NCBI RefSeq assembly: GCF_035621355.1
Contig: NZ_CP141769.1
Coordinates: 930,001 to 994,000, forward strand
Direction of reading: 5' to 3'
From: Thiobacillus sp. SCUT-2
GTDB lineage: Bacteria; Pseudomonadota; Gammaproteobacteria; Burkholderiales; Thiobacillaceae
Length of the DNA stretch: 64,000 nt
The position numbers and the translations under genes are program-made. Below are positions 17,240-33,788 of the stretch, piece by piece. Positions within the stretch are counted from its first letter, which is position 1. Each line of letters opens with the position of its first letter. The notes under the pieces are model-generated. The model searched no databases. It was not told the origin of the DNA and was given only the letters and a program-made list of their open reading frames with translations.

Positions 17240-20044
<2,805 letters not shown>

Positions 20045-20140
20045 GGTCGTTTGACTCGTAGAGAAGAGGGCGTGTGAAACGGGCGAAAGGCCGGATTTTA
20101 CCGGAAGCGCGCCGCCTCGCGCGAAGCGCTGCAGACGCTG

Positions 20141-20491
20141 CTACAGCTTGATGCCGAATGCGGCAAGCAGCCGAACCGCACCGAGATAGGCCAGCGCGGT
20201 GGCAGCGCTCGACAGGGCGAGGCTGGCCCAGAAGCCAATGCCGAGGCGCAGCAGCACCGGCAGCACGACGAGCAGGACCAGGGACGGCAGCACCAGCCAG
20301 AAGATGCTGCCCGACAGCGCAGCGATCTTCTGCACGTCGCCGGTGTCGAGATAGAGCCAGACGAAGGCGAGCACCGAGGTGAGCGGCAGCGAGGCCAGCG
20401 CGGCCGCCCAGAACGTGCTGCGCTTGGCGATCTCGGCGACCGCGACGATGATCAGCGCCGACAGCCCGACCTTGAGCGCGTATTGCCCCAT
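20141..20491 (-). CDS. DUF3147-family membrane protein
   Basis: 116 residues with four hydrophobic segments, the size and layout of DUF3147 inner-membrane proteins, whose role is unknown. It lies 40 bases after lysS on the same strand and may be read from the lysS promoter. A GC-rich inverted repeat (AGCCCGC/GCGGGCT) occupies the gap but has no T run. Confidence 0.7.
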   Translation of the reverse strand: MGQYALKVGLSALIIVAVAEIAKRSTFWAAALASLPLTSVLAFVWLYLDTGDVQKIAALSGSIFWLVLPSLVLLVVLPVLLRLGIGFWASLALSSAATALAYLGAVRLLAAFGIKL

Positions 20492-20531
20492 GGTCTTCGG
20501 CTCAGCCCGCGCGCCGCATTGGCGGGCTGTC

Positions 20532-22037
20532 CTAGGCTTCCCGCCGCATTTGCGGGAAGAGGATGACGTCGCGGATGCTCGGGGAGTCGGTCAGCAGCAT
20601 CACCAGGCGGTCGATGCCGATGCCGCAGCCGCCGGTGGGCGGCAGGCCGTGCTCGAGCGCGCGGATGAAGTCGGCGTCGTAGTGCATCGCCTCCTCGTCG
20701 CCGGCCTCCTTCGCGCGCACCTGCTCCATGAAGCGCTCGGCCTGGTCCTCGGCGTCGTTGAGCTCGGAGAAGCCGTTCGCCATCTCGCGCCCGGTGATGA
20801 AGAGCTCGAAGCGCTCGGTGATGTCGGGCTGGGTGTCGGAGCGGCGCGCCAGCGGCGACACCTCGGCCGGGTAGTCGATGATGAAGGTCGGCTGGATCAG
20901 CTGCGCCTCGGTCGTCTCCTCGAAGAAGGTCAGCTGCAGGCCGCCGATGCCGTCGTGCTCGCGGTACTTGGCCTTCATCGCCTTGAACTGGGCGACCAGC
21001 CAGTCGCGGTCGTTGAGCTGCTCGACCGTGTATTCGGGGTGGTACTTGCGGATCGCCTCGACGATGGTGAGGCGGTCGAACGGCTTGCCGAGCTCGACGG
21101 TGTGGCCCTGATAGTTCACGGTCGTCGAGCCGGTCGCGGCGACCGCGGTGTGGCGGATCAGCGCCTCGGTGAAGTCCATGAGATACCGGTATTCGCGGTA
21201 GGCCTCGTAGAACTCCATCATGGTGAACTCGGGGTTGTGCCGCGTCGAGAGGCCTTCGTTGCGGAAGTTGCGGTTGATCTCGAACACCTTCTCGAAGCCG
21301 CCGACGACCAGGCGCTTGAGGTAGAGCTCGGGCGCGATGCGCAGGAACAGCTCCATGTCGAGCGCGTTGTGGTGGGTGATGAAGGGCTTGGCCGCCGCGC
21401 CGCCGGGGATCGGGTGCATCATCGGCGTCTCGACTTCGAGGAAGCCGTGGCCGGTCATGAACTCGCGGATCGACTGGATGATCTTCGAGCGGCGCACGAA
21501 GGTCTCGCGCGCGTCTTCGCTGGTGATGAGGTCGAGGTAGCGCTGGCGGTATTTCTGCTCCTGGTCGGCGAGCCCGTGGAATTTCTCCGGCAGCGGGCGC
21601 AGCGCCTTGGACAGCAGGCGGATCGATTTGGCCTGGATCGTCAGTTCGCCCTTGTTGGTCTTGAACAGCGTGCCGGTCACGCCGAGGAAGTCGCCGAGGT
21701 CCCAGTGCTTGAAGGCGTCGTGCGCATCAGTGCCGGTGAGGTCGTTCGAGACGTAGACCTGGATGCGGCCGCTCATGTCCTGCAGCGTGGCGAAGCTCGC
21801 CTTGCCCATCACGCGCTTCAGCATCATGCGGCCGGCGAGCCGCACCTGCACGCCCTCGGCTTCCAGCGCTTCCTTGGATTTGTCGCCGTGGTCGCTTGCG
21901 AGCTTGCCGGCGTAGTCGTGGCGCTCGAAGTCGTTGGGGAAGGCGACGCCCGCCTCGCGGATCGCGGCGAGCTTGGCGCGGCGCTCGGCGATGATCTGGT
22001 TCTCGTCGAGGGCAGGAGCGTTGGTTTCGGTGTTCAT
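20532..22037 (-). CDS. lysS: Lysyl-tRNA synthetase, class II
   Basis: 501 residues. LysS charges tRNA-Lys in the cytoplasm. An OB-fold anticodon domain ([29 protein letters not shown]) is followed by the class II core with motif 2 ([20 protein letters not shown]) and motif 3 ([13 protein letters not shown]). I start at [20 protein letters not shown], which is family-like, rather than 14 residues upstream. Confidence 0.97.
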
Positions 22038-22170
22038 TGTCAGGATGGCAAAAGGGCAGGGGCCGGACACGGCCGGCAAACATTCAGTCAGGGCGCGGCA
22101 GGGTCCGGGCGGGCGGAAATTCCTGCAAAACCTCGGGCTGGCTCAAGGAAACGCGCAAAAACGTGACAAA

Positions 22171-22176
22171 ATTATA
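22171..22176 (-). promoter_or_regulatory. -10 box for lysS
   Basis: On the minus strand the perfect TATAAT lies 134 bases before the lysS start, in a local AT-rich patch (GATATAATTTTG). No good -35 is seen 16-18 bases upstream. Confidence 0.45.
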
Positions 22177-22207
22177 TCCGATCCAAGCCCATGATTTCCC
22201 GGCCTTA

Positions 22208-22340
22208 GGAGACCCTGAACAAGTCCTTCGACAGGCTCAGGCTGCGTCGTGAGCCTGTCGAAGGACGAACGGCATGTCGTTGATTCCGTTCGTGGTGAGC
22301 TTGTCGAACCATGAGCGGAATCAAGCTGTTCAGATACTCC
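22208..22340. repeat. 133-bp palindromic repeat element (REP/MITE-like)
   Basis: The element fills most of the 341-base gap between lysS and recQ. A 17-bp perfect inverted repeat (22223-22239 with 22250-22266, core CCTTCGACAGGCTCA) is followed by a 15-bp near-perfect stem (22282-22296 with 22308-22322, core GATTCCGTTCGTGGT). Both are enclosed by imperfect ends, GGAG then CTGAACA on the left and TGTTCAG then CTCC on the right. TTCGACAGGCTCA-type palindromes are familiar as dispersed intergenic repeats in proteobacteria. No transposase is encoded. Confidence 0.85.
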
Positions 22341-22378
22341 CATATACGCCGGAATTCCCCACGCCCCGCCCGATTCCC

Positions 22379-24175
22379 ATGTCCGACACGCCCCTAAAAC
22401 TGCTGAATCGCGTCTTCGGCTACCCCGCCTTCCGCGGCCAGCAGCAGGCCATCATCGAGCAGGTCGCGGGCGGCGGCGACGCGCTGGTGCTGATGCCGAC
22501 CGGCGGCGGCAAGTCGCTGTGCTACCAGATCCCGGCGCTCTTGCGCGAGGGGTGCGCGGTCGTGGTGTCGCCGCTGATCGCGCTGATGCACGACCAGGTC
22601 GCGGCGCTGCAGGAACTCGGCATCGCCGCGGCCTACCTGAATTCCAGCCTCGACGGCGCTGCCGCGATGCAGGTCGAGCGCGAGTTCGTGACCGGCCAGC
22701 TGAAGCTGCTGTACGTGGCGCCGGAACGCTTGCTGACGCCGCGCTTCCAGAGCCTGCTGGAGCAGGCGCGGCTCGCGCTCTTTGCAATTGACGAGGCGCA
22801 CTGCGTCTCGCAGTGGGGGCACGATTTCCGTCCCGAGTATCTCGGCCTGTCAGCGCTGCACGAGCGCTTCCCCGAAGTGCCGCGCATCGCGCTCACGGCC
22901 ACTGCCGACGCCGCCACGCGCGCCGAGATCGTCGAACGGCTCGACCTGCACGAAGCGCAAGTCTTTGCCGCCAGCTTCGACCGCCCCAACATCCGCTACC
23001 GCATCAGCGAGAAATCCGACCCGCGCCGCCAGCTGCTCGCCTTCCTCGACGAACACGCCGGCGAGGCCGGCATCGTCTACTGCAGCACGCGCAAGAAAGT
23101 GGAAGAAACCGCCGAGGCGCTCGTCCAGGCCGGCTACACCGCGCTGGCGTATCACGGCGGCATGGACAACGACACGCGCCGCCGCCACCAGGAGCGGTTC
23201 CTGCGCGAGGACGGCGTCATCATGGTCGCCACGCTCGCGTTCGGCATGGGCATCGACAAGCCCGATGTGCGCTTCGTCGCCCACCTCGACCTGCCGCGCT
23301 CGGTCGAGGGCTACTACCAGGAAACCGGCCGCGCCGGCCGCGACGGCGAGCCCGCCGAGGCGTGGATGGCGTGGGGCCTGCAGGACGTCGTGACGCAAAG
23401 ACGTTTTATCGACGAGGGCGAGGCCGAGGACACGCACAAGCGCATCGGCCACGCCAAGCTCGACGCCCTGGTCGGCCTGTGCGAAGCCGCCAGCTGCCGC
23501 CGCGTCGCGCTCTTGAGCTACTTCGGCGAAGCCAGCCAGCCCTGCGGCAACTGCGACGTCTGCCTCAACCCGCCCACGCTGTGGGACGGCACCGAGGCCG
23601 CGCAGAAGCTGTTGAGCACGGTCTACCGCACCGGCCAGCGCTTCGGCGCCGGCCACGTCATCGACGTGCTGCTCGGCAAGACCACCGAGAAAATCGACCG
23701 CTTCGGCCACAACCAGCTGAGCGTGTTCGGCATCGGCGCCAGCCAGAGCGACAAGGTCTGGCGTGCCGTGCTGCGCCAGCTCGTGGTGCGCGGCCTGCTG
23801 GAGGTCGATCACACCGCCTACGGCGCACTCAAGCTCACCCAGGCCGCCAAGCCCGTGCTGAAGGGCGAGGAAACCGTCATGCTGCGCGCCATCGAAGCGC
23901 GGCCGGCGCGCAAGAAATCGCGCCTCGCCCCCAGCTCCGGCGCCGGCGTCCACGACGACGAAGATCCCTTGTTCCTGTCCCTGCGCGCCTGGCGCCGCGA
24001 AACCGCCAACGAAAAGGGCGTGCCTGCCTACGTCATCCTGCACGACGCCACCCTGCGCGAGATCGCTGCGCGCCGTCCTGCCACGCTGGCGGAGCTGGGC
24101 GAAATTCCCGGGCTGGGTGCGAAGAAACTGGAGGCCTACGGCGAGGACGTGCTGGGGGTGGTGGCGGAGGGGTGA
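22379..24175 (+). CDS. recQ: ATP-dependent DNA helicase RecQ
   Basis: 598 residues. RecQ is a 3'-5' helicase of recombination and replication-fork repair. Walker A is PTGGGKSLCYQ, motif II is DEAHCVSQWGHDFRP, and motif VI is YYQETGRAGRDG. The RQC zinc cysteines are in EAASCRR and CGNCDVC, and an HRDC domain ends the protein (RPATLAELGEIPGLGAKKLE). I start at MSDTPLKLLNRVFGY. The 35 extra residues of the longer reading come partly from the repeat element upstream. The gene ends where the lower-GC island begins. Confidence 0.96.
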   Translation: MSDTPLKLLNRVFGYPAFRGQQQAIIEQVAGGGDALVLMPTGGGKSLCYQIPALLREGCAVVVSPLIALMHDQVAALQELGIAAAYLNSSLDGAAAMQVEREFVTGQLKLLYVAPERLLTPRFQSLLEQARLALFAIDEAHCVSQWGHDFRPEYLGLSALHERFPEVPRIALTATADAATRAEIVERLDLHEAQVFAASFDRPNIRYRISEKSDPRRQLLAFLDEHAGEAGIVYCSTRKKVEETAEALVQAGYTALAYHGGMDNDTRRRHQERFLREDGVIMVATLAFGMGIDKPDVRFVAHLDLPRSVEGYYQETGRAGRDGEPAEAWMAWGLQDVVTQRRFIDEGEAEDTHKRIGHAKLDALVGLCEAASCRRVALLSYFGEASQPCGNCDVCLNPPTLWDGTEAAQKLLSTVYRTGQRFGAGHVIDVLLGKTTEKIDRFGHNQLSVFGIGASQSDKVWRAVLRQLVVRGLLEVDHTAYGALKLTQAAKPVLKGEETVMLRAIEARPARKKSRLAPSSGAGVHDDEDPLFLSLRAWRRETANEKGVPAYVILHDATLREIAARRPATLAELGEIPGLGAKKLEAYGEDVLGVVAEG

Positions 24176-24269
24176 GCCGTATGTTCGATCGTCTTGTCCG
24201 GCGGATTGTTTTTGATGGCCGTTATTCGGCCAAAGCTGCCGCCGGTAATCGGTCCTCGGGGCGGCTGCT

Positions 24270-24416
24270 ATGGATTACGTACAGGACATTTACCACTGTC
24301 GTAACGGGGAGGTCCGCTTTACCCGGTCTCATTGGCTAAGATCGACACCAATTAGAGATGTTTACAATCAGCAGCCTGTAATGGCCCCAAAAGAAGATGC
24401 CACGGGAGCAGCTTGA
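24270..24416 (+). CDS. 48-aa ORF coupled to the GNAT-PIN fusion gene
   Basis: A 48-residue ORF, MDYVQDIYHCRNGEVRFT onwards, with a stop codon just upstream of its ATG and a GGGGCGG stretch before it. Its TGA overlaps the ATG of the large fusion gene (TGATG at 24414-24418), the usual sign of translational coupling. Composition is mixed and charged, without a membrane segment. I do not recognise it. It could be an antitoxin-like partner, a leader peptide or a remnant of a longer gene. The competing ORF at 24181-24339 in another frame has no such coupling. Confidence 0.45.
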   Translation: MDYVQDIYHCRNGEVRFTRSHWLRSTPIRDVYNQQPVMAPKEDATGAA

Positions 24417-26575
24417 TGACAAAAGCAGCGAATTCTTTCCATATCTTGAGCCGATTCGGCCAGACACAAGTCTACCTTGATCATGTGCGCAGGGCGGCTG
24501 ATACACACAAAGAAGAGCTTGGCTTTTTGCCTGGCAAGGTTTACGACGAGTTTGCGCGCAAGGAATGTCTCTACGTGTTGGTGGCGGACACACCCCAAGG
24601 CTCGAAGTACGCGGGGCACTTGATTTTTAGTCAGTCGTATCCGACCGCCAAGGTCATCCAGATGTACACGGACCCTGGTTTCAGACGAAACGGAGCGGCC
24701 ACAACTTTACTAAATCGGTTTAAAGCCGAGTTGACCGATGCAGGGTTTACATCGATATATGCCGGTGTCGCAGAAGACCTAGCCACAGCAAACGCCTTTT
24801 GGGAGCGACAACAATTTCATGTTCAAAGAATCAAGAAGGGGGGTGAATCTCGCAAGCGGGTCATCCTTCATCGTTGCCACGAACTAGACTCACCTCAGTT
24901 GTTTCCACGAAGTGGCCTCAACAAACACAATCCTCTCGGCCTCCAACCTCCTAAAGTCGGTAGCGATCTCCTCTTTCTGCTGGATTTAAATGTCGTTTTT
25001 GACCTTGCCGGACCTCGCCGCGCTCGTCACGAAAAGGCGGTTGGCCTTTTTCAGGCGGAGCGCTCGAACCTTTGTAGATTGGCAATTAGCGATGAGTTGA
25101 GAACGGAGTTAAAGGAGACAGCGACACCCGGAAAGATCGACCCCATGGAGGGGTTCATAGATATTCTCCCCGAGGTGCCGCTTCGGAAGTATGACCCCCT
25201 TGAGCCTCTATTGGCTGAACTACACGCTCTAGTGTTCCCTGAAAAAGAAAAGTTGTCGAGAAATGACAAATCCGACCTTCGACATATCGCGACTGCGGTC
25301 CAGCATGGCCTTGCAGGACTGATCACAAACGACGAATCCGTGCTTTCTGCAGCTCGGTCAATCAAGGATAAGTATGGCATCGAGCTAATTTCTCCCGATG
25401 CGTTCATGGCGGCCCGAATAGAGCCTCAAACAAACACGTTTGAAGGCCATGAAGACTTCGAATTGAGGCTCCACCATGTGGATAATGAGCACTCCGAGGC
25501 AATCCACGCCCTCTTGAAGGTGCAAGGAGTGCCTACATCACAGGTCACAACAGCATGGCTGCCCACGGGGTTGAACACCTTGGTTGCAACGCGTTTCGGT
25601 GTGTGGGCCACTAATGAGCTGGTGGGATATATCACCTGGTCTAATGCCTTGGCGACTGCAACGGTTCTTGCGCGCATGGCTGTCAACACCAAGCATGCTG
25701 CTGCTGCAGACGCTGCACGAATAATGCTCACATTCTTAATTGACCGCTTGCCGGCGGAGACCTCAGCGGCGCGTATTGATCTTGAGCTTCCTGGGTCACA
25801 GCCAGCAGTGCGAGAGGCCGCAATCAAGCTAGGGTTTAGAGGTGCTTCAGGGCAAGAAGGTCTATACAAGGTTGCCTTGGGCGGAGTCTTGACAGCTCAT
25901 ACTTGGGCGGTTCACCGGGAGCGACTTGAGCGTAACAACGGTGTCAGATTGCCAGATCAGATTCCGCATTTTCATGGACCCGACCAGCAGATTGCTGTAA
26001 TTGGCTCCGACGGTGATCAACGGTTTATTACGCTAGATGATCTTGAGTCGTTACTTGCACCGGCTCTCTTTTGCTTACCCGGGAGACCGGCAGTGATTAC
26101 CCCCATCCGGCGAGGCTATGCGGAGCCGTTGCTGGGCCATTCGGCACAAACATCCTTTCTGCCATCACCTAGAGCAACTCTTTTTCGTGATCGTCACTAC
26201 ATTTGTGCGCCAACCAGTCTCCGGCACTTTAAGCGTGGAACGTTGATGTTTTTCTATGAGTCCACTCGCAATGGGGGGCGCGCTGCTTTGGTCGCCATGG
26301 CTCGTGTTCGTCAAGCATATCTCAAGCACTGCAACGATCTCGGGGATGAAGATTTTGAGCAATCGGTGCTCAATGGAAAAACTATCAAGATAGTGGGAAA
26401 GTCAGTGCTCAAAACTGTGACCGTATTCGACAATATTTTCGTGCTGTCTCGTGCAGTACCGCTTAAGACACTTGTCAGTCTGGGATGTGGTTCGGCAACG
26501 AATTTGCTCACGACAAAACCCATATCATTTGTACAGACGCAGGCCATCTTGCAGGAAGCATTCAGCAATGACTGA
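24416..26575 (+). CDS. Multidomain protein: GNAT + PIN nuclease + GNAT-like + PUA/ASCH-like
   Basis: 719 residues. Residues 15-155 look like a GNAT acetyltransferase, with the acetyl-CoA loop in DPGFRRNGAATTLLNRF (86-102). Residues 185-335 look like a PIN RNase: D190 in LLDLNVVFDL, E227 in ISDELRTEL, D287 in KSDLRHIATA and D306 in LITNDESVL are the expected acidic residues. Residues 350-490 resemble a second, degenerate GNAT domain. Residues 555-680 (RRGYAEPLLG, GTLMFFYESTRNGGRAALV) resemble a PUA/ASCH fold. GGGAG lies before the ATG. It overlaps both neighbours. A role in RNA modification or cleavage is plausible but inferred; domain calls are by eye. Confidence 0.75.
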   Translation: MTKAANSFHILSRFGQTQVYLDHVRRAADTHKEELGFLPGKVYDEFARKECLYVLVADTPQGSKYAGHLIFSQSYPTAKVIQMYTDPGFRRNGAATTLLNRFKAELTDAGFTSIYAGVAEDLATANAFWERQQFHVQRIKKGGESRKRVILHRCHELDSPQLFPRSGLNKHNPLGLQPPKVGSDLLFLLDLNVVFDLAGPRRARHEKAVGLFQAERSNLCRLAISDELRTELKETATPGKIDPMEGFIDILPEVPLRKYDPLEPLLAELHALVFPEKEKLSRNDKSDLRHIATAVQHGLAGLITNDESVLSAARSIKDKYGIELISPDAFMAARIEPQTNTFEGHEDFELRLHHVDNEHSEAIHALLKVQGVPTSQVTTAWLPTGLNTLVATRFGVWATNELVGYITWSNALATATVLARMAVNTKHAAAADAARIMLTFLIDRLPAETSAARIDLELPGSQPAVREAAIKLGFRGASGQEGLYKVALGGVLTAHTWAVHRERLERNNGVRLPDQIPHFHGPDQQIAVIGSDGDQRFITLDDLESLLAPALFCLPGRPAVITPIRRGYAEPLLGHSAQTSFLPSPRATLFRDRHYICAPTSLRHFKRGTLMFFYESTRNGGRAALVAMARVRQAYLKHCNDLGDEDFEQSVLNGKTIKIVGKSVLKTVTVFDNIFVLSRAVPLKTLVSLGCGSATNLLTTKPISFVQTQAILQEAFSND

Positions 26576-27059
26576 GGTAGAAAATATCCTGATCTCGCTT
26601 GACCATCGCCATGCGCATAACATCTACGCTGGAACAAAAAAAGTTGAGCTGAGGCGCCGAGCACTTCATGTTAACGCTGGCGATATCGTCTGGATTTACG
26701 AAAAGGTCCCTGTCGGATCCATCACGGGCAGCGCAAGCATTACGGCGGTCCACATCAAATCTCCTGCCAAGCTATGGCGTCAGTTTGGTGCGGTGTCTGG
26801 GCTGTCAAAGGCCGAGTTTTTCGAGTATTTCGCTGGGCAGGGAACAGCATGTGCGCTAGAACTATCTGGGGCGCACAGGATTCCGAAACCATTGTCACTG
26901 GCGGCACTTAGAGCTGCCATCAGCAATTTTCAACCGCCGCAGTTCTTCCTTCGTCTTCAGACTAAGCAACCAATTTTGGCCGCGCTGCAGACGGCTAACG
27001 CTGATACCAAAAGAATTTTGCATCCGTGCATTCAACCCCAAACGTGTGCCATTGCATAG
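26568..27059 (+). CDS. ASCH/PUA-fold domain protein
   Basis: 163 residues. The first 70, ILISLDHRHAHNIYAGTKKV, then ELRRRALHV, GDIVWIYEKVPVGSITGSA, match the ASCH pattern (I-KP-Y-I-G-K--E-R, then GD-V-IY). ASCH domains are PUA-related and are thought to bind RNA. The remainder is helical with a Pro/Cys-containing tail. AGGAAG precedes the ATG, and the gene overlaps the fusion gene by eight bases, so the two are translated together. The similarity of its YEKVPVGS stretch to YESTRNGG in the fusion protein suggests the two share a fold. Confidence 0.75.
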   Translation: MTEVENILISLDHRHAHNIYAGTKKVELRRRALHVNAGDIVWIYEKVPVGSITGSASITAVHIKSPAKLWRQFGAVSGLSKAEFFEYFAGQGTACALELSGAHRIPKPLSLAALRAAISNFQPPQFFLRLQTKQPILAALQTANADTKRILHPCIQPQTCAIA

Positions 27060-27063
27060 GTTT

Positions 27064-27291
27064 ATGCGTCCTATCACCCGCCCTCTGCGAGCACCTGCCA
27101 AGACCAACAGTGATCGCTGGGAACAGCTAGTTTCGTTCGACGAAGAGTTGTTTATGGGAGCGCGATACTCTAGGAGGGGAGCAATAGGAGACAGATCATG
27201 GTTTCTAAAGACGGTGGTTGATCGCTTAGGTCGAGAGCCAGCCGTTCACCTTATGCTGGCATACAGGCAAGATAGCCTCTGCTGCGCTTAA
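27064..27291 (+). CDS. Small hypothetical ORF at the island end
   Basis: 75 residues from ATG at 27064 (a GTG at 27046 would overlap the ASCH gene). It has low-GC codons like the island and a clear run from SDRWEQLVSFDEELF to the stop. Not recognised; it may be a third island gene or the truncated end of a larger one. Its TAA overlaps the pepN TAA on the opposite strand (TTAA at 27288-27291). Ribosome-site support is poor. Confidence 0.35.
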   Translation: MRPITRPLRAPAKTNSDRWEQLVSFDEELFMGARYSRRGAIGDRSWFLKTVVDRLGREPAVHLMLAYRQDSLCCA

Positions 27292-30053
27292 GCCTTCAGC
27301 GCATTCCCCACCACTTCTGCCACGTCCTTCGCCAGTCCCTCGATCGCCGCAATGCGTTCCAGCGCGGCGCGCGCGTGGGCCTGTCGGCCGGCGTCGAATT
27401 GGCGCCAGCGGTCGAAGCTGCGCGCGATGCGCGAGGCGACCTGCGGGTTGATCGCCTGCAATTCGCTGATGACGTCGGCGGCCAGCGCGTAGCCGCTGCC
27501 GTCGGCGGCGTGGAAGTGGCGCGGGTTGGCGCCGCAAAAGCCGCGGATCAGGGCGTAGACGCGGTTGGGGTTCTTGAGATCGAACGCCGGATGCTGCATC
27601 AGCGCGCGCACGTGCGCGGCGGTGCCGGGCAGGCGCGAGGTGGCCTGCACAGAGAACCACTTGTCGATGACCAGGGCTTCGTTCCGCCAGGGCGCGTAGA
27701 AGTCGGCGAGCGCCGTTTCTCTCTCGGGCAGGTCGAGGTTGGCGAGCGTGGCCAACGCGGCTATTTCGTCGGTCATGTTGCCGCCGGGCGCCAACTGGGC
27801 GGTGAGGCGTGGCACGACCGAGGCTTTCAGATAGTCGGCCTCGCTTTCGGCCAGATAGCCGAGGCAGGCGTTGCGCAGCGCGCGCTGGCCGACCTGTGAA
27901 CCGTCGGGTGCATAGGCTTCGCTCGGGGCCAGTGCGTTCCACACGGTTTCGAATTTATCGCGCAGGCGGGCGGCGAGGTGGCGGCGCAGGCTGACGCGTG
28001 CCGCGTGGATGGCTTCGGGGTCGATGGTGCCGCCTTGCGCAACAACGGCTTCGGCGAGCACGGCTTCGGCGGGCAGGTTGAGTGCCTCGGCGGCGAGCGC
28101 GGGGTCGCCATTCAGGCCGTCGTCGAGCACGCGGCCGCAGGCGGCGACGAAGGCATCGGGGATCCAGTCGCTGCCAAGCGCGTTTCCCTCTCCCCGGCCC
28201 TCTCCCGCTTGCGGGAGAGGGGGACGCGGTAACGCTGCGCGTTGTTGCGCATTAACGCCGGCGAGCAGGACGCGCGTCGCCAGGCGCTGGCCGGCTTCCC
28301 AGCGGTTGAAGGCGTCGGAATCGTGTGCCATCAGGTGCGCAAGCTCGGCGTCGGTCTGCTCGAATTCGAGCTGCACCGGCGCGGAGAAGTCGCGCAGCAA
28401 CGAGGCGACGGGGGCGTCGGGGACATCTTCGAAGACGAAGGTCTGCGTGGGCTCGGTCAGCGACAGCACGCGCGTGGTGCCGGCGGCTTCGGCCTCGCCG
28501 GCGAGTTTCAGCGGCGCGTCATGACCATTTGGCAGCACCAGCCCGAGCGCGACGGGAATGTGCAGCGTGCCTTCGACAACCGGCTGTCCCGACTCGGCCA
28601 GCCGCTTCTCGTAGGCGGTCGGGGCGAGGGTTTGCGTGAGCGTCAGCGTGTAGCGTTTCGTCGCGGCGTCGTACGTGCCGGATGCAGTCAAACGCGGCGT
28701 GCCGGCGCGCGCGTACCAGCGGCGGAACTGCGTGAGGTCGACGCCGGAGGCGTCCTGCATCGCCGCGACGAAATCCTCGCAGGTGACCGCCTGGCCGTCG
28801 TGGCGCTGGAAGTACAGATCCATGCCGCGGCGGAAGCCGTCGCGCCCGAGCAGGGTGTGGATCATGCGGATGACTTCCGCGCCCTTGTTGTAGACGGTGG
28901 CGGTGTAGAAGTTGTTGATCTCGGCGTAGGAGGCCGGCCGGATCGGATGCGCCATCGGGCCAGCGTCCTCGGGAAACTGGCCGACGCGCAGCGCGCGCAC
29001 TTCCTGGATGCGGGTGACCGCGCGCGAATGCGTGTCGGCGCCGAATTCCTGGTCGCGGAACACCGTCAGGCCTTCCTTCAGCGACAGCTGGAACCAGTCG
29101 CGGCAGGTGACGCGGTTGCCGGTCCAGTTGTGGAAATACTCGTGCGCCACCACGCGGTCGATGCCCTGGTAGTCGGCGTCGGTCGCGGTGTCGGGGCGCG
29201 CCAGCACGTATTTGGTGTTGAAGATGTTGAGGCCCTTGTTCTCCATCGCCCCCATGTTGAAGTCGCCGACGGCGACGATCATGTACTGGTCGAGGTCGTA
29301 TTCGAGGCCGAAGCGCTGTTCGTCCCAGCGCATGGCTTTTTTCAGCGCCGCCATCGCGTGGCCGCACTGGTCGAGCTTGCCCGGCTCGACGTAGACCGCC
29401 AGCCGAACCTTGTGTCCCGAGGCGGTGAGGAATTCGTCTTCCAGCACGTCGAGCTTCGCCGCGACGAGGGCGAACAGGTAGCAGGGCTTGGCGTAGGGAT
29501 CGTCCCAGCGCGCCCAGTGCCGCGTCGCGTCGTCCGCGCAGACGCCCGCCGCCACCGGGTTGCCGTTCGACAGCAGGTGCGGGAAGCGCGCGCGATCGGC
29601 CTCGATCGTGCAGCTGAATCTCGCCATCACGTCCGGCCGGTCGGGGAAGAAGGTGATGCGGCGGAAGCCTTCCGCCTCGCACTGCGTGAAATAGCCGTCG
29701 CGCGAGCGGTACAGGCCCGAGAGGTGGGTGTTGCGGTCGGGGTCGATGCGCACGACGGTTTCCAGCACGCAGGCATCGGGGAGCGGGCCGGCGATCGTCA
29801 GCCGGTCGTCGGCGACCACGTAACGCGTCGCGTCGAGTGCGGCGCCGTCGAGCGTCACGCTCAGCAACTGCAGTGCTTCACCGTCGAGCACCAGGGGGGC
29901 GTCCGCCACCGCCGGATTGCGTGTGCAGGCAAGCCGCGCCCGCACCTCGGCGTGGCCGTCGTGGATCGCGACGTGCAGATCGACCGAGTTGACCCGCCAG
30001 GCGGGCGGCGTGTAGTCCTTCAGGTACAGCGTGACGGGCGTTTCGGTGCGCAT
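27288..30053 (-). CDS. pepN: Aminopeptidase N (M1 family)
   Basis: 921 residues. PepN is the main cytoplasmic broad-specificity aminopeptidase. GAMENKGLNIFN precedes the zinc site HEYFHNWTGNR with the third ligand Glu about 19 residues on (LKEGLTVFRDQE). It is about 50 residues longer than the E. coli protein; part of this is a stretch LPRPPLPQAGEGRGEG near residues 608-625 that is encoded by a palindromic repeat inserted in frame. The rest of the reading frame is intact. It lies upstream of no close partner; prfB follows it on the other side (same strand, upstream). Confidence 0.96.
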   Translation of the reverse strand: MRTETPVTLYLKDYTPPAWRVNSVDLHVAIHDGHAEVRARLACTRNPAVADAPLVLDGEALQLLSVTLDGAALDATRYVVADDRLTIAGPLPDACVLETVVRIDPDRNTHLSGLYRSRDGYFTQCEAEGFRRITFFPDRPDVMARFSCTIEADRARFPHLLSNGNPVAAGVCADDATRHWARWDDPYAKPCYLFALVAAKLDVLEDEFLTASGHKVRLAVYVEPGKLDQCGHAMAALKKAMRWDEQRFGLEYDLDQYMIVAVGDFNMGAMENKGLNIFNTKYVLARPDTATDADYQGIDRVVAHEYFHNWTGNRVTCRDWFQLSLKEGLTVFRDQEFGADTHSRAVTRIQEVRALRVGQFPEDAGPMAHPIRPASYAEINNFYTATVYNKGAEVIRMIHTLLGRDGFRRGMDLYFQRHDGQAVTCEDFVAAMQDASGVDLTQFRRWYARAGTPRLTASGTYDAATKRYTLTLTQTLAPTAYEKRLAESGQPVVEGTLHIPVALGLVLPNGHDAPLKLAGEAEAAGTTRVLSLTEPTQTFVFEDVPDAPVASLLRDFSAPVQLEFEQTDAELAHLMAHDSDAFNRWEAGQRLATRVLLAGVNAQQRAALPRPPLPQAGEGRGEGNALGSDWIPDAFVAACGRVLDDGLNGDPALAAEALNLPAEAVLAEAVVAQGGTIDPEAIHAARVSLRRHLAARLRDKFETVWNALAPSEAYAPDGSQVGQRALRNACLGYLAESEADYLKASVVPRLTAQLAPGGNMTDEIAALATLANLDLPERETALADFYAPWRNEALVIDKWFSVQATSRLPGTAAHVRALMQHPAFDLKNPNRVYALIRGFCGANPRHFHAADGSGYALAADVISELQAINPQVASRIARSFDRWRQFDAGRQAHARAALERIAAIEGLAKDVAEVVGNALKA
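28186..28226. repeat. Palindromic repeat inserted in frame in pepN
   Basis: CCCTCTCCCGC TT GCGGGAGAGGG (28198-28221) is an 11-bp perfect palindrome, preceded by a partial copy CCCTCTCCCCGG. This sequence is a well-known dispersed intergenic repeat type in proteobacteria, giving PLPQAGEGRGE when translated. Here it lies inside a coding gene without breaking the frame. Confidence 0.8.
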
Positions 30054-30092
30054 CGGGTCTCCGGCGGCAGACTGGGGTGGGTCAATATCGCA

Positions 30093-30109
30093 CCCGCCCG
30101 TCAGGCGGG
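30093..30109 (-). terminator. Weak GC hairpin after prfB
   Basis: CCCGCC CGTCA GGCGGG is a 6-bp stem in the 64-base gap between the prfB stop and the pepN start. No U-tract follows. Confidence 0.3.
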
Positions 30110-30117
30110 CGCGGGGG

Positions 30118-31222
30118 TCACACGCCCTGCTTGAGGCTCGCCTCGATGAACTGGTCGAGGTCGCCGTCGAGCACTTTCTGCGTGTTCGACGCCTCGACGT
30201 TGGTGCGCAGGTCCTTGATGCGCGACTGGTCGAGCACGTAGCTGCGGATCTGGTGGCCCCAGCCGACGTCGGACTTGCCCGCCTCGAGCTTGTCCTGCTC
30301 GGCCTGGCGCTTGCGCAGCTCGGCTTCGTACAGGCGCGACTTCAGCATCGACATCGCCTCGGCCTTGTTCTTGTGCTGCGAACGGTCGTTCTGGCACTGC
30401 ACCACGATGTTGGTCGGCAGGTGCGTGATGCGCACCGCGGAGTCGGTCTTGTTGATGTGCTGGCCGCCGGCGCCGGACGCGCGGTAGGTGTCGATGCGCA
30501 GGTCGGCCGGGTTGATGTCGACCTCGATCGAGTCGTCGACCTCGGGATAGACGAACACGCTGGCGAACGAGGTGTGACGGCCGCCCGAGGAGTCGAACGG
30601 CGACTTGCGCACCAGGCGGTGGACGCCGGTCTCGGTGCGCAGGTAGCCGTAGGCGTAGTCGCCCTCGATCTTGATGCTGGCCGACTTGATGCCGGCGACG
30701 TCGCCCTCGGATTCTTCCAGCAGTTCGGCCTTGAAGCCCTTGCGCTCGGCGTACTTCAGGTATTGCCGCAGCAGCATCGACGCCCAGTCGCACGCCTCGG
30801 TGCCGCCGGCGCCGGCCTGGATGTCGAGGAAGCAGTTCGACGGGTCGGCGGGGTTGTTGAACATGCGGCGGAACTCGAGCTGCGCGACGTCCTTCTCGAT
30901 GTTCCCGAGGTCGTCGCGCACCGCGACGAGGGTGTCGTCGTCGTTCTCGGCGCGCGCCATCTCGAACAATTCCCCGGCGTCCTTGAGCCCGGCCGCGACG
31001 CGGTCGAGCACCAGCACCACGTCTTCGAGCGCCTTGCGCTCGCGGCCGAGCGCCTGCGCCTTTTCCGGATCGTTCCAGAAATCGGGCGCTTCGGAGAGGC
31101 GGATGACTTCTTCTAGGCGGTCTTTCCTGACAGGGTAGTCAAAGAAACCCCCTGAGCTGGCCGGCGCGCGCGCCGAGGTCGGCGAGTCGGGATTCGATCT
31201 GGTTGAGGCTTTCGGCTTCCAT
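30118..31222 (-). CDS. prfB: Peptide chain release factor 2 (programmed frameshift)
   Basis: RF2 ends translation at UGA and UAA. The coding sequence is in two frames: the start ATG at 31222 gives [17 protein letters not shown] and runs to an in-frame TGA at 31139-31141, and the rest follows in the +1 frame beginning [12 protein letters not shown]. The GGQ motif is in [12 protein letters not shown] and the stop-recognition SPF is in KSPFDSSG. Joined length is about 367 residues, as in E. coli. High RF2 ends translation at the TGA, low RF2 lets the shift occur, so the gene regulates itself. Confidence 0.97.
31138..31153 (-). promoter_or_regulatory. prfB +1 programmed frameshift site
   Basis: Reading on the minus strand: AGG GGG TTT CTT TGA C. 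The AGGGGG acts as an internal Shine-Dalgarno three bases before the slippery CTT, and the shift moves TGA to GAC. This is the canonical RF2 element. Confidence 0.95.
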
Positions 31223-31237
31223 GGCTGTGCTCGATGA

Positions 31238-32518
31238 CTAGGCGGAAAAACCGCGCATTATAGCCCACGCGACGAGCATCCCCAGCCCGGTCGCGCCGAT
31301 GCCGGCGATCGCGTGGCGCGCCATGTTCCAGCCGCCGATGAAGAGGATGAGCGCGGACTTGAAGGCGAGGTTGGAGAAGAACGCGAGCGTGACGACGTTG
31401 ACCACCACCGCCGATGACAGCTTGTCGAGATTGAACAGGCGCAGGCTCGACAGGGTGATGGGGTCGACGTCGGTCAGGCCCGACACCAGCGCGACCGCGT
31501 AGAGGCCGCGCGCGCCGAGCCAGTCGGACAGCCAGGCGGCGGCCAGCAGCACGATCGCATACATGAGCCCGAATCCCAGGGCCGTGCGCAGCTCCGTGGG
31601 GTTGGCCATCGCCAGTGCCGGCAGTTCGCCTTGCGGGCGCAGCTGCCGGACGCCGTAAGCGGCGGCCAGCACGCCGGCGACGAGGCCGCCTGCCAGCACC
31701 GGCAGCAGGTGGACGAGCACCGAGGGGGCCAGCACGGCCGCCAGCACCCCCAGCCGCACCAGCACGACCAGATTGGCCAGCACGACGACGATGACGGCGA
31801 TCGAGGTCATCGTGGCGCTGGCGCGCGCATGGCGGCTGAAGGCGAGGGTGGTCGCGGTCGACGACACCACGCCGCCGAGCAGGCCTACGGTCACGGCGCC
31901 CCGCCGCTGGCCGACCAGCCGCAAGGCGGCGTAGCCGGCCAGGCCGACGCCGGCGATCAGCACCACGATCCACCAGATCTGGTAGGGGTTGAGCGCGCCG
32001 AAGGGGCCGTAGTCGCGATTCGGCAGCAGCGGCAGGATGATCAGCGAGAGCACGGCGAACTGCAGCACCGACAGCAGGTCGCGGCGCGACAGGTGCTGGC
32101 TCAGGCCGCGCAGCTCCGGCTTGAAATAGAGCAGCATCGTGCTGGCGATGCCGAGCATCACCGCGAGCTGGATTTCGTCGTGCCACACCAGCACGCCGAG
32201 GCCGTAGCACAGCATCAGCGCCGCCACCGTCGTCGTGCCGGGGTCGCCGTCCTGCGCCGGCGACTGGAGGTAGGCCGCGATCATCATCGCGCCGACCAGC
32301 AGGAGACCGACCGCGACCATCCACGTCTCGCCGAGCGCCGCCGCCAGATGGGCGGACAGCACGCCGAACAGCGCGGTCAGGGCGAAGGTGCGCAGGCCGG
32401 CCTTGGCCGCCGGGTTGCGTTCGCGCTCGAATCCCATCAGGAGCCCGATGGCCATTGCGACGACGTAGCGCGGCAAGGGGGCGAGTTCGGGCGGCAGCCA
32501 GGTGATCAGGTCGTTCAT
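31238..32518 (-). CDS. MgtC/DUF4010 integral membrane protein
   Basis: 426 residues, strongly hydrophobic with about twelve membrane segments. The N-terminal part ([26 protein letters not shown]) matches the MgtC family N-terminus, and the C-terminal half matches DUF4010. Such proteins are often annotated as possible Mg2+ stress or transport proteins, but the substrate is not proven. The start [13 protein letters not shown] is preferred to a longer reading that would begin with charged, non-hydrophobic residues. It lies upstream of prfB on the same strand, 15 bases apart. Confidence 0.82.
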
Positions 32519-32680
32519 CGTGGGGGGCGTCGGGTGAGTGTGCGGGACAAGGGCGGGGCGCCTGCTGATTCGCGTCGACTGGTAAATCCTAACCTTGGCT
32601 CCCCCCGGCGTCCGTGCCAGTATTCTGGCATGCGCATCGTGCGCTCGCATGGCCGATTGCGAAAATCCGCTTCTAAAGTA

Positions 32681-32708
32681 CATATTAATATGCCGATGTA
32701 TTAATATG
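32681..32708 (+). promoter_or_regulatory. Tandem AT-rich palindromes before the cytochrome gene
   Basis: CATATTAATATG is a self-palindrome, and its core TATTAATATG is repeated 16 bases on (32683-32692 and 32699-32708). They lie 31 bases before the cytochrome ATG in otherwise GC-rich DNA. They may be operator half-sites or include the -10. Confidence 0.45.
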
Positions 32709-32738
32709 GTGTCTCACGCTGGTAAGAGGGGAACGCTC

Positions 32739-33788
32739 ATGCTGATCCGTCTGATTGCAACCATCCTGCTCGGCGCGCTGGCGATGTCCGCCGCGTGGGG
32801 GGAACCGAACGGCGCCAAGCTGTACGCGCGCAACTGCGCGGCCTGCCACGGCGCCAGAGGCACGGGCAGCATCGGCGTGCCGCTGGCGCTGCCCTCGTTC
32901 CAGGCCACGATCACCGACGACTACCTGCGCAAGACGATCCACCTGGGCCGTCCGGGGCGCGTCATGCCGACTTTCTCCAACCTGAGCGACGACGAGATCG
33001 ACGCGATCGTCCGCTACGTGCGCTCCTGGTACAGCGGACCCGTGGTGACCTATTCGAACGCGCCGGTCAAGGGCGATCCCGCGCGCGGCAAGAAGCTCTT
33101 CGCGCAGAATTGCGCCGCCTGCCACGGGGCGAACGGCGAGGGGGCGAAGGGGACGGGCGTGACCTTCTCGCGCCCGCGCGACCTGCCGATCATGGCGCCC
33201 GCGCTGCACAACCCGGGCTTCCTCGCCGCCGCCCCCGACGCGATGATCAAGGCCACGCTGATGAAGGGGCGCGAAGGCACGCCGATGCGCTCCTTCCTGA
33301 AGCAGGGGCTGAAGGAAAGGGACATCGACGACATCGTCAGCTACGTGCGCAGCTTCGAGAAGCAGCCGCTCGCCGGCTCCGCCCAGCTGCTGCAGGCCGA
33401 GAGCCCGGTGATCGTGCGCGACTCGCCCTACGACCTGAAGACGACGGTCGAGAACGTCAAGACGGCGGTCACCACCAACAACTTCTTCTACGGGCGCGTG
33501 CAGACGCTCGAATACGGGCTGACCCAGCCCGAGAACGAGAACCCGAAGCAGGTCATCGTCTATTTCTGCAACATCAGCCTGCTCAACCAGGCGCTCGGGG
33601 TCGACCCGCGCGTCGGCATGTTCCTGCCGTGCCGCATCACCATCCTCGAGAAGCCCGACGGCAAGGTGCAGGTGATGTCGGTCAATCCCAAGGTGCTGAG
33701 CCAGCTGTTCAACAATTCCGAGCTGAACGAGTTGTGCGAGCAGATGAAGCAGAACTACACCAAGATCATGGAGGAGGCGACGCTATGA
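32739..33788 (+). CDS. Exported dihaem cytochrome c fused to a DUF302 domain
   Basis: 349 residues. A signal peptide (LIRLIATILLGALAMSAAWG) is followed by two class I cytochrome c domains with CAACH at 33-37 and 125-129. Likely distal methionines are M76 (GRVMPTF) and the one in EGTPMRSF. From about residue 225 a DUF302 domain follows (TVENVKTAVTTNNFFYGRV), whose function is unknown. The protein should act in the periplasm as an electron carrier. AGAGGGG before the ATG marks the start. The stop overlaps the next gene (ATGA), which is also DUF302. Confidence 0.88.
   Translation: MLIRLIATILLGALAMSAAWGEPNGAKLYARNCAACHGARGTGSIGVPLALPSFQATITDDYLRKTIHLGRPGRVMPTFSNLSDDEIDAIVRYVRSWYSGPVVTYSNAPVKGDPARGKKLFAQNCAACHGANGEGAKGTGVTFSRPRDLPIMAPALHNPGFLAAAPDAMIKATLMKGREGTPMRSFLKQGLKERDIDDIVSYVRSFEKQPLAGSAQLLQAESPVIVRDSPYDLKTTVENVKTAVTTNNFFYGRVQTLEYGLTQPENENPKQVIVYFCNISLLNQALGVDPRVGMFLPCRITILEKPDGKVQVMSVNPKVLSQLFNNSELNELCEQMKQNYTKIMEEATL

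Follow-up and report, generated by a model that had tools for sequence, protein, structure and literature searches.

In a stretch of 64,000 nucleotides from Thiobacillus sp. SCUT-2 (contig NZ_CP141769.1, positions 930,001 to 994,000; hereafter the window, numbered from its first letter), an insert of about 3.1 kb lies between the stop codons of recQ at 24175 and pepN at 27288 and carries two conserved genes, here called A and B, which we propose to be a variant of PDC-M11, the PADLOC phage defense candidate M11 (PDC-M11A plus PDC-M11B, i.e., a PIN-GNAT-EVE protein plus an ASCH protein). Gene A (24416..26575, forward strand) encodes 719 amino acids that read as GNAT, PIN, degenerate GNAT, and an ASCH/EVE-like end, and gene B (26568..27059, forward strand), which overlaps A by 8 bases, encodes a stand-alone ASCH protein of 163 amino acids that PADLOC matches to PDC-M11B. 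The flanking recQ (22274..24175, forward strand) and pepN (27288..30053, reverse strand) are core genes from the list of open reading frames (ORFs), with names read from their sequence. G+C content is 0.49 to 0.55 in 500-base windows inside the insert and 0.60 to 0.74 in the flanking windows of 18000 to 33000, in agreement with the preliminary description of this DNA, which had seen a lower-G+C insert filling the space between the two genes.

The same description had counted four ORFs linked by TGATG and 8-base overlaps. The TGATG does join a 48-amino-acid ORF (24270..24416, forward strand) to A, and the overlap of A with B is as described, but B overlaps the 81-amino-acid ORF on its 3' side (27046..27291, forward strand) by 14 bases, and the conserved unit comprises two genes, not four, because neither outer ORF has a conserved counterpart in the homologue loci (tblastn, best E 1.6 for the 48-amino-acid ORF and 0.18 for the 81-amino-acid ORF). 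Both were rejected as parts of the system on these values and probably lie outside it; the 48-amino-acid ORF also matched no Pfam family at E 1. A chance ORF is excluded by the existence of homologues; capture by an integron or integrase was considered and set aside without a detailed search for one. An Rfam scan of 24000 to 27500 returned nothing at E 0.1, and this interval thus holds no known RNA family at that threshold.

A variable junction shared with defense genes

Within the genus, recQ was found in 52 of 56 genomes and pepN in 47, the window's own genome included, and the two genes share a contig in 24 (again including our own), the remainder having them on separate contigs or lacking a detectable copy of one. 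In these 24 genomes the distance between recQ and pepN ranges from 38 bp to 28.6 kb; it exceeds 1 kb in 21, and in two it is below 50 bp, i.e., the site is empty. The neighboring junction between lysS and recQ, taken as a control, exceeds 1 kb in only 1 of 47 genomes. That sole large lysS-recQ distance (6 kb) belongs to genome G030, whose own recQ-pepN gap is 368 bp.

We scanned ten cargo proteins, chosen by eye, from seven other inserts at this junction. Clear defense cargo comprised Septu PtuA/PtuB (genome G024), a Drt8 reverse transcriptase (G051), a type II restriction-modification pair (G004), and a bSEFIR protein (G032); cargo proteins of loci L077, L072, and L086 matched no clear defense family, and Pfam found zinc-finger domains in L079 and nothing in L070. 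In the left edge of our insert (24176..24415), blastn aligns 50 bases (24183 to 24232) at 82% identity with the edge of the restriction-modification insert of the sister genome G004. Because this edge resembles that of an insert with different content, the site looks as if cargo had been swapped between the same edges. The recQ-pepN junction of the genus may be a promising spot for defense gene hunting.

Gene A itself is patchily distributed, being present in its own genome and in 2 of 99 related genomes (G040, 61% identity, on two contigs, and G031, 22%), and over its full length in at least 3 of a further 396 genomes sampled across the phylum (G324, G483, and G161, among the matches listed). 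A larger count, 235 of 397 phylum genomes matching the full A profile at E 0.001, was set aside: apart from the own genome and these three, the matches listed cover about the first 190 positions of the profile, which is the GNAT, and were dropped. Further copies occur in 26 loci of named genome contigs, many of them metagenome bins, whose record titles include Beta- and Alphaproteobacteria, sulfate reducers, Planctomycetes, Verrucomicrobia-type bacteria, and Bacteroidota, as well as on one viral contig and one plasmid. Scanning the genome contigs with the single A sequence found no relative and a three-sequence alignment did find them; the phage genomes searched gave no match to A. One copy, in a Pedobacter record of the Bacteroidota (L035), is 45% identical to A and thus nearer than many proteobacterial copies, though the bin may be mixed.

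This distribution bears on whether the genes might be a housekeeping operon for RNA modification or RNA quality control with no role in conflict. PUA/ASCH, GNAT, and PIN domains are all familiar from proteins of translation and RNA metabolism, which would suit such an operon, but presence in the own genome and 2 of 99 related ones, a low-G+C island at a variable site, and the existence of a plasmid copy and of one among phage genes make it highly improbable, and the patchy presence, if it holds in complete genomes, refutes it. The homologues are not uniformly core genes outside variable regions, the pattern that the preliminary description had named as contradicting its reading.

Counting each locus once and including the window gives 33 loci (L003 and L060 are the same locus, and L002 and L004 represent a single gene found on two contigs). 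Gene B lies directly 3' of A in 32 of them, the exception, L040, being a contig end. In 27 of the 31 unfused pairs a possible start codon of B lies 1 to 14 bases inside the end of A, and in one locus (L051:3549-6128) A and B form one natural ORF of 859 amino acids, which offers a single-chain complex for structure work. In two loci gene A appears to be interrupted and is read as two ORFs each (L049:7998-10175 and L040:8001-10265).

Strict pairing of two coupled genes, which overlap in 27 of 31 cases and have been found on a plasmid as well as among phage genes, could also mark a plain toxin-antitoxin (addiction) system in which A is a toxic ribonuclease (RNase) or acetyltransferase, B its antitoxin, and the pair persists by stabilizing mobile DNA and not by fighting phages; Bell et al. 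2020 group (PIN)-GNAT-EVE with toxin-antitoxin systems (PMC7641849). We consider this doubtful, though it deserves attention: B matches the ASCH fold and no DNA-binding family, it is second in order, and several loci sit with restriction systems. With 719 amino acids and four domains, A would also be large for a plain toxin.

To characterize the surroundings of the homologues, neighbors in 11 of the 33 loci, chosen by eye and outside the window, were compared with a defense library, and 9 of the 11 gave matches. These comprised type III methyltransferases (L036 and L039), Wadjet JetC (L038), a helicase with a PglX-like protein (L044), a helicase with a methyltransferase (L054), type IIG (L052 and L096) and type I systems (L058), and an AAA/OLD-like ATPase that is weak as to family (L037). 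A restriction or methyltransferase gene lies directly upstream on the same strand in L039, L044, L052, and L096; HNH_5 endonuclease genes adjoin the pair at L047:4673-5326, L054:6948-7802, and L059:7041-7937; and in L061 the pair stands amid phage head genes on the opposite strand. As to the broader proposal of an RNA-directed toxin, defense, or stress system, the defense part gains support from the variable junction, the restriction neighbors, and the phage head genes; its RNA-directed part, in which the ASCH protein would recognize RNA or a modified nucleotide and the fusion would cut or acetylate, is a proposal taken up below.

Domains and active-site residues of the two proteins

Protein A begins with a GNAT domain (residues 1 to 158; 24416..24889, forward strand), identified by Pfam as Acetyltransf_1 (E 5e-11, residues 45 to 132) and by VIA-align, which pairs it with the Ard1/RimI acetyltransferases at a Z score of about 20. 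The PIN nuclease domain (residues 186 to 332; 24971..25411, forward strand) is supported by a PIN_3 match (E 0.0029, residues 188 to 307) that lies below the family cutoff, by a PDC-M11A match, by profile-profile alignment (hhalign), and by its residues and modeled fold. A second GNAT fold (residues 349 to 488; 25460..25879, forward strand) is recognized from the order of its elements in the model and is without an acetyl-CoA motif, and the protein ends in an ASCH/PUA-like barrel (residues 540 to 719; 26033..26572, forward strand), labeled EVE in the literature, which rests on Foldseek and hhalign; the Pfam scan of A did not match EVE. The AlphaFold2 model, built from 25 aligned sequences (mean predicted local distance difference test [pLDDT] 82, predicted template modeling score 0.68), places a GNAT at 1 to 158, a PIN-like alpha/beta domain at 186 to 332, a GNAT order of elements at 349 to 488, and a beta barrel at 559 to 703. 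Foldseek searches with this model ranked the Ard1/RimI protein acetyltransferases first among the matches listed and also recovered the ASCH crystal structures 5gus_B (row 42, E 2.6e-6, template modeling score 0.81 on the target) and 5y6b_A (row 50), which we place on the C terminus because the model has only one barrel, the query range not being printed. The VIA-align matches listed all fall on the N-terminal GNAT, and support for the folds of the PIN domain and the second GNAT comes from the model, the profiles, and the residues; the AtaT and TacT toxins are absent from the best 50 Foldseek matches, which excludes nothing. The preliminary description had read this protein as GNAT-PIN-GNAT-PUA/ASCH, and this reading fits in every part, the predicted structure including both the PIN-like domain and the ASCH-like barrel on which that reading depended.

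Five PIN residues (D190, N192, E227, E231, and D287) are invariant in all 25 aligned A proteins, position 284 is Asp in 21, and position 306 carries Asp in 19 proteins and Glu in the other 6, so the four acidic residues expected from the single sequence (D190, E227, D287, and D306) hold in all 25, the last as Asp or Glu. The N-terminal GNAT carries R-x-x-G-x-A (R90, G93, and A95), which we take to be the acetyl-CoA motif: the form R/Q-x-x-G-x-G/A/S is found in 17 of 25 proteins and the relaxed form R/Q-x-x-G/K in 24, and the second GNAT has the motif in none. An intact first and a degenerate second GNAT are thus common to the aligned homologues, and together with the invariant PIN residues they make the roles of the domains separable.

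Because most of the 25 proteins keep the acetyl-CoA motif (17 in its strict and 24 in its relaxed form), the effector might instead be the acetyltransferase, with the N-terminal GNAT acetylating charged tRNA or a base while PIN and ASCH direct it or dispose of its products. Bell et al. 2020 cite GNAT toxins with charged tRNA as their substrate and propose such a role for PIN against GNAT-EVE (PMC7641849). We regard this as unlikely, since the PIN residues are kept in 25 of 25 proteins against 17 for the strict GNAT motif and the solved structures that rank highest for the GNAT are the protein acetyltransferases RimI and Ard1.

For B, the Pfam ASCH match (E 0.0051) lies below the family cutoff, but PADLOC assigns the protein to PDC-M11B (E 7e-26), and PDB entry 5gus, ZmASCH of Zymomonas mobilis, matches it at 1.5e-14 as a single sequence and 3.3e-35 with a profile, making ZmASCH its nearest solved relative by sequence; the gene after A is accordingly an ASCH protein, as first described. 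The barrel of A resembles B in turn (hhalign of residues 500 to 719 against the B profile, probability 98.4, E 5.7e-14). So close a relative of ZmASCH might be an enzyme, either an RNase, as ZmASCH is reported to degrade single-stranded RNA with contributions from Tyr47, Lys53, and Ser128 (PMC5615036), or an amidohydrolase that removes the acetyl mark of the GNAT, as YqfB acts on N4-acetylcytidine through a Lys21-Thr24-Glu74 triad plus Arg26, with Thr24 the proposed nucleophile (PMC6972931). These three ZmASCH residues have been probed by mutation, and B retains just Tyr47 (as Y44), Lys53 aligning with G50 and Ser128 with F126; K24 and R29 are spaced like Lys21 and Arg26 of YqfB, a comparison of residue spacing with YqfB itself outside the alignment, but the position of Thr24 by that spacing is Glu (E27) in 16 of 16 aligned B proteins. 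An enzymatic B is therefore very unlikely in our estimate. B appears to be an ASCH-fold relative of ZmASCH, for which we claim no catalytic membership, and because Lys53 and Ser128 are lost and Thr24, judged by spacing, appears to be replaced by Glu, a reading or binding role seems more likely for it than cutting or deacetylation.

The relationship of A to PDC-M11A is drawn from profile-profile comparison; the published model matches weakly (18.1 bits, E 2.1e-4, on the PIN part alone, residues 187 to 317). Three canonical PDC-M11A proteins from other genomes (L098 to L100) read as PIN-GNAT-barrel, and the GNAT of all three aligned proteins keeps G-x-K-L/I-G-E. Residues 186 to 719 of A are colinear with the entire canonical protein (hhalign probability 99.3, E 8.9e-21); by domain, the PIN (probability 97.2) and the barrel (residues 500 to 719, 99.2) align well and the first GNAT does not (9.5). 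We call A a variant because a GNAT-bearing stretch of 185 residues precedes its PIN domain. One canonical member, a 638-amino-acid ORF at L099:1234-3147, reads as PIN-GNAT followed by two ASCH-like ends, apparently an A-B-type pair fused in another branch.

A putative two-gene defense module and its relation to known systems

We propose, with a probability of roughly 55%, that the A-B unit is an anti-phage module with the PIN RNase as its effector. The island would then be a horizontally moving two-gene module, a GNAT-extended form of PDC-M11, in which A is the toxin-like effector and its PIN domain cuts RNA, most likely tRNA or other RNA of translation. The ASCH barrel of A and protein B may associate and, as a complex, sense a nucleotide or nucleic acid, holding A silent until infection alters the bound ligand. 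The N-terminal GNAT may be an active acetyltransferase, the second GNAT having turned structural, and its acetyl group would probably be placed on the same RNA target or on the complex as a switch. Our confidence is lower for the ASCH gating and the GNAT role than for the core proposal. An RNase effector held with an ASCH sensor fits the invariant PIN site, the strict overlapping pairing, the natural fusion, and the defense-type locations; we infer from these the RNase activity, the complex, and protection against phages, and the unit appears to be a real, conserved variant of a predicted defense family with a plausible mechanism.

Several observations weigh against this proposal. (i) At the junction, the scanned proteins of three of the seven inserts (G009, G047, and G019) gave no clear defense match, and several other inserts look metabolic or transport-related by eye. 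(ii) The window copy has no adjoining restriction-modification gene; the neighbor scan covered 11 loci chosen by eye and not the window, and two of these (L005 and L059) had no defense-library match among the neighbors scanned. (iii) In the AlphaFold model of the L051 fusion, the B half, modeled without an alignment for B, has mostly pLDDT below 50 and no interface with A was seen. (iv) Membership in PDC-M11 is blurred by the PDC-M11A model, whose six-frame search at E 0.001 did not report our own genome and which at that threshold also matches 2 of 14 control genomes (0 of 14 at 1e-20), and by the second GNAT, which on its own does not match canonical PDC-M11A significantly (hhalign probability 0.95). 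(v) The family is listed as a phage defense candidate, but our literature search found no experimental report of it, i.e., no activity, interaction, or phage experiment for any member, and Bell et al. 2020 state that no module of these systems has been characterized (PMC7641849).

A bolder version of the mechanism would make the unit an RNA-level counterpart of restriction-modification, in which the N-terminal GNAT writes an acetyl mark on RNA, the two ASCH barrels read nucleotide modification, and the PIN domain destroys wrongly marked RNA during infection. We hold this to be quite improbable. If true, writer, readers, and cutter would be joined in one two-gene unit, with the writer shifted from the second GNAT to the fused first one, and pairs beside restriction-modification genes could serve as a guard, killing the cell once a phage escapes DNA restriction.

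For those restriction-linked homologues, the nearest functional model is PrrC, an anticodon nuclease that its linked type I enzyme keeps silent and that an anti-restriction factor of the phage switches on (PMC2610378). The likeness that we infer to PrrC and RloC lies in an RNase next to restriction-modification genes, whereas the window copy stands alone, without such genes linked to it. PrrC is an ATPase plus a HEPN-type nuclease and is set apart from A by these domains; A is not a member. Single domains of A share their folds with VapC-type PIN toxins and with GNAT toxins of the AtaT/TacT type, but A is a multidomain fusion. Type II GNAT toxins such as AtaT and TacT have a small DNA-binding (RHH) antitoxin as partner, whereas the partner here, B, matches ASCH. 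ZmASCH (5gus/5guq) is the nearest solved relative of B, a fold match of the A model, and shares Tyr47 with B, from which it differs in the Lys53 and Ser128 (RNA binding and cleavage) that the window B has lost.

The closest likeness is to PDC-M11. Bell et al. 2020 report (PIN)-GNAT-EVE fusions that have an ASCH gene beside them, their PIN versions near type I restriction-modification, and cite Iyer et al. 2013 for PIN-GNAT-EVE plus ASCH operons; PIN is placed at the N terminus, and their passages on these fusions mention no GNAT ahead of it (PMC7641849). Our literature search found PIN-GNAT-EVE, GNAT-EVE, and GNAT-PIN named only in that paper and found no paper using the name PDC-M11; we did not find the GNAT-PIN-GNAT-ASCH architecture described in the text searched, though it may be drawn in the figures or supplements of Bell et al. 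2020 or in Iyer et al. 2013. A shares with PDC-M11 the order of its parts (PIN domain, then GNAT fold, then a PUA-like barrel at the C terminus), the adjoining ASCH gene, and, for several homologues, nearby restriction-modification genes. It differs in its length and extra intact GNAT (719 amino acids against 492 in L098 and 504 in L100), in a second GNAT without the acetyl-CoA motif (a criterion of our own, not a published one), in a PIN domain that is not N-terminal (the usual architecture in Bell et al. 2020 rather than a stated requirement), and in having no AAA_17 gene beside the window copy. As far as sequence and predicted structure allow, the best description of A is that of a PDC-M11A-like protein to which a GNAT has been added in front and whose internal GNAT is degenerate; the predicted PIN-GNAT-EVE plus ASCH family was already known, and what appears to be new here is the intact GNAT ahead of PIN and the degeneration of the second.

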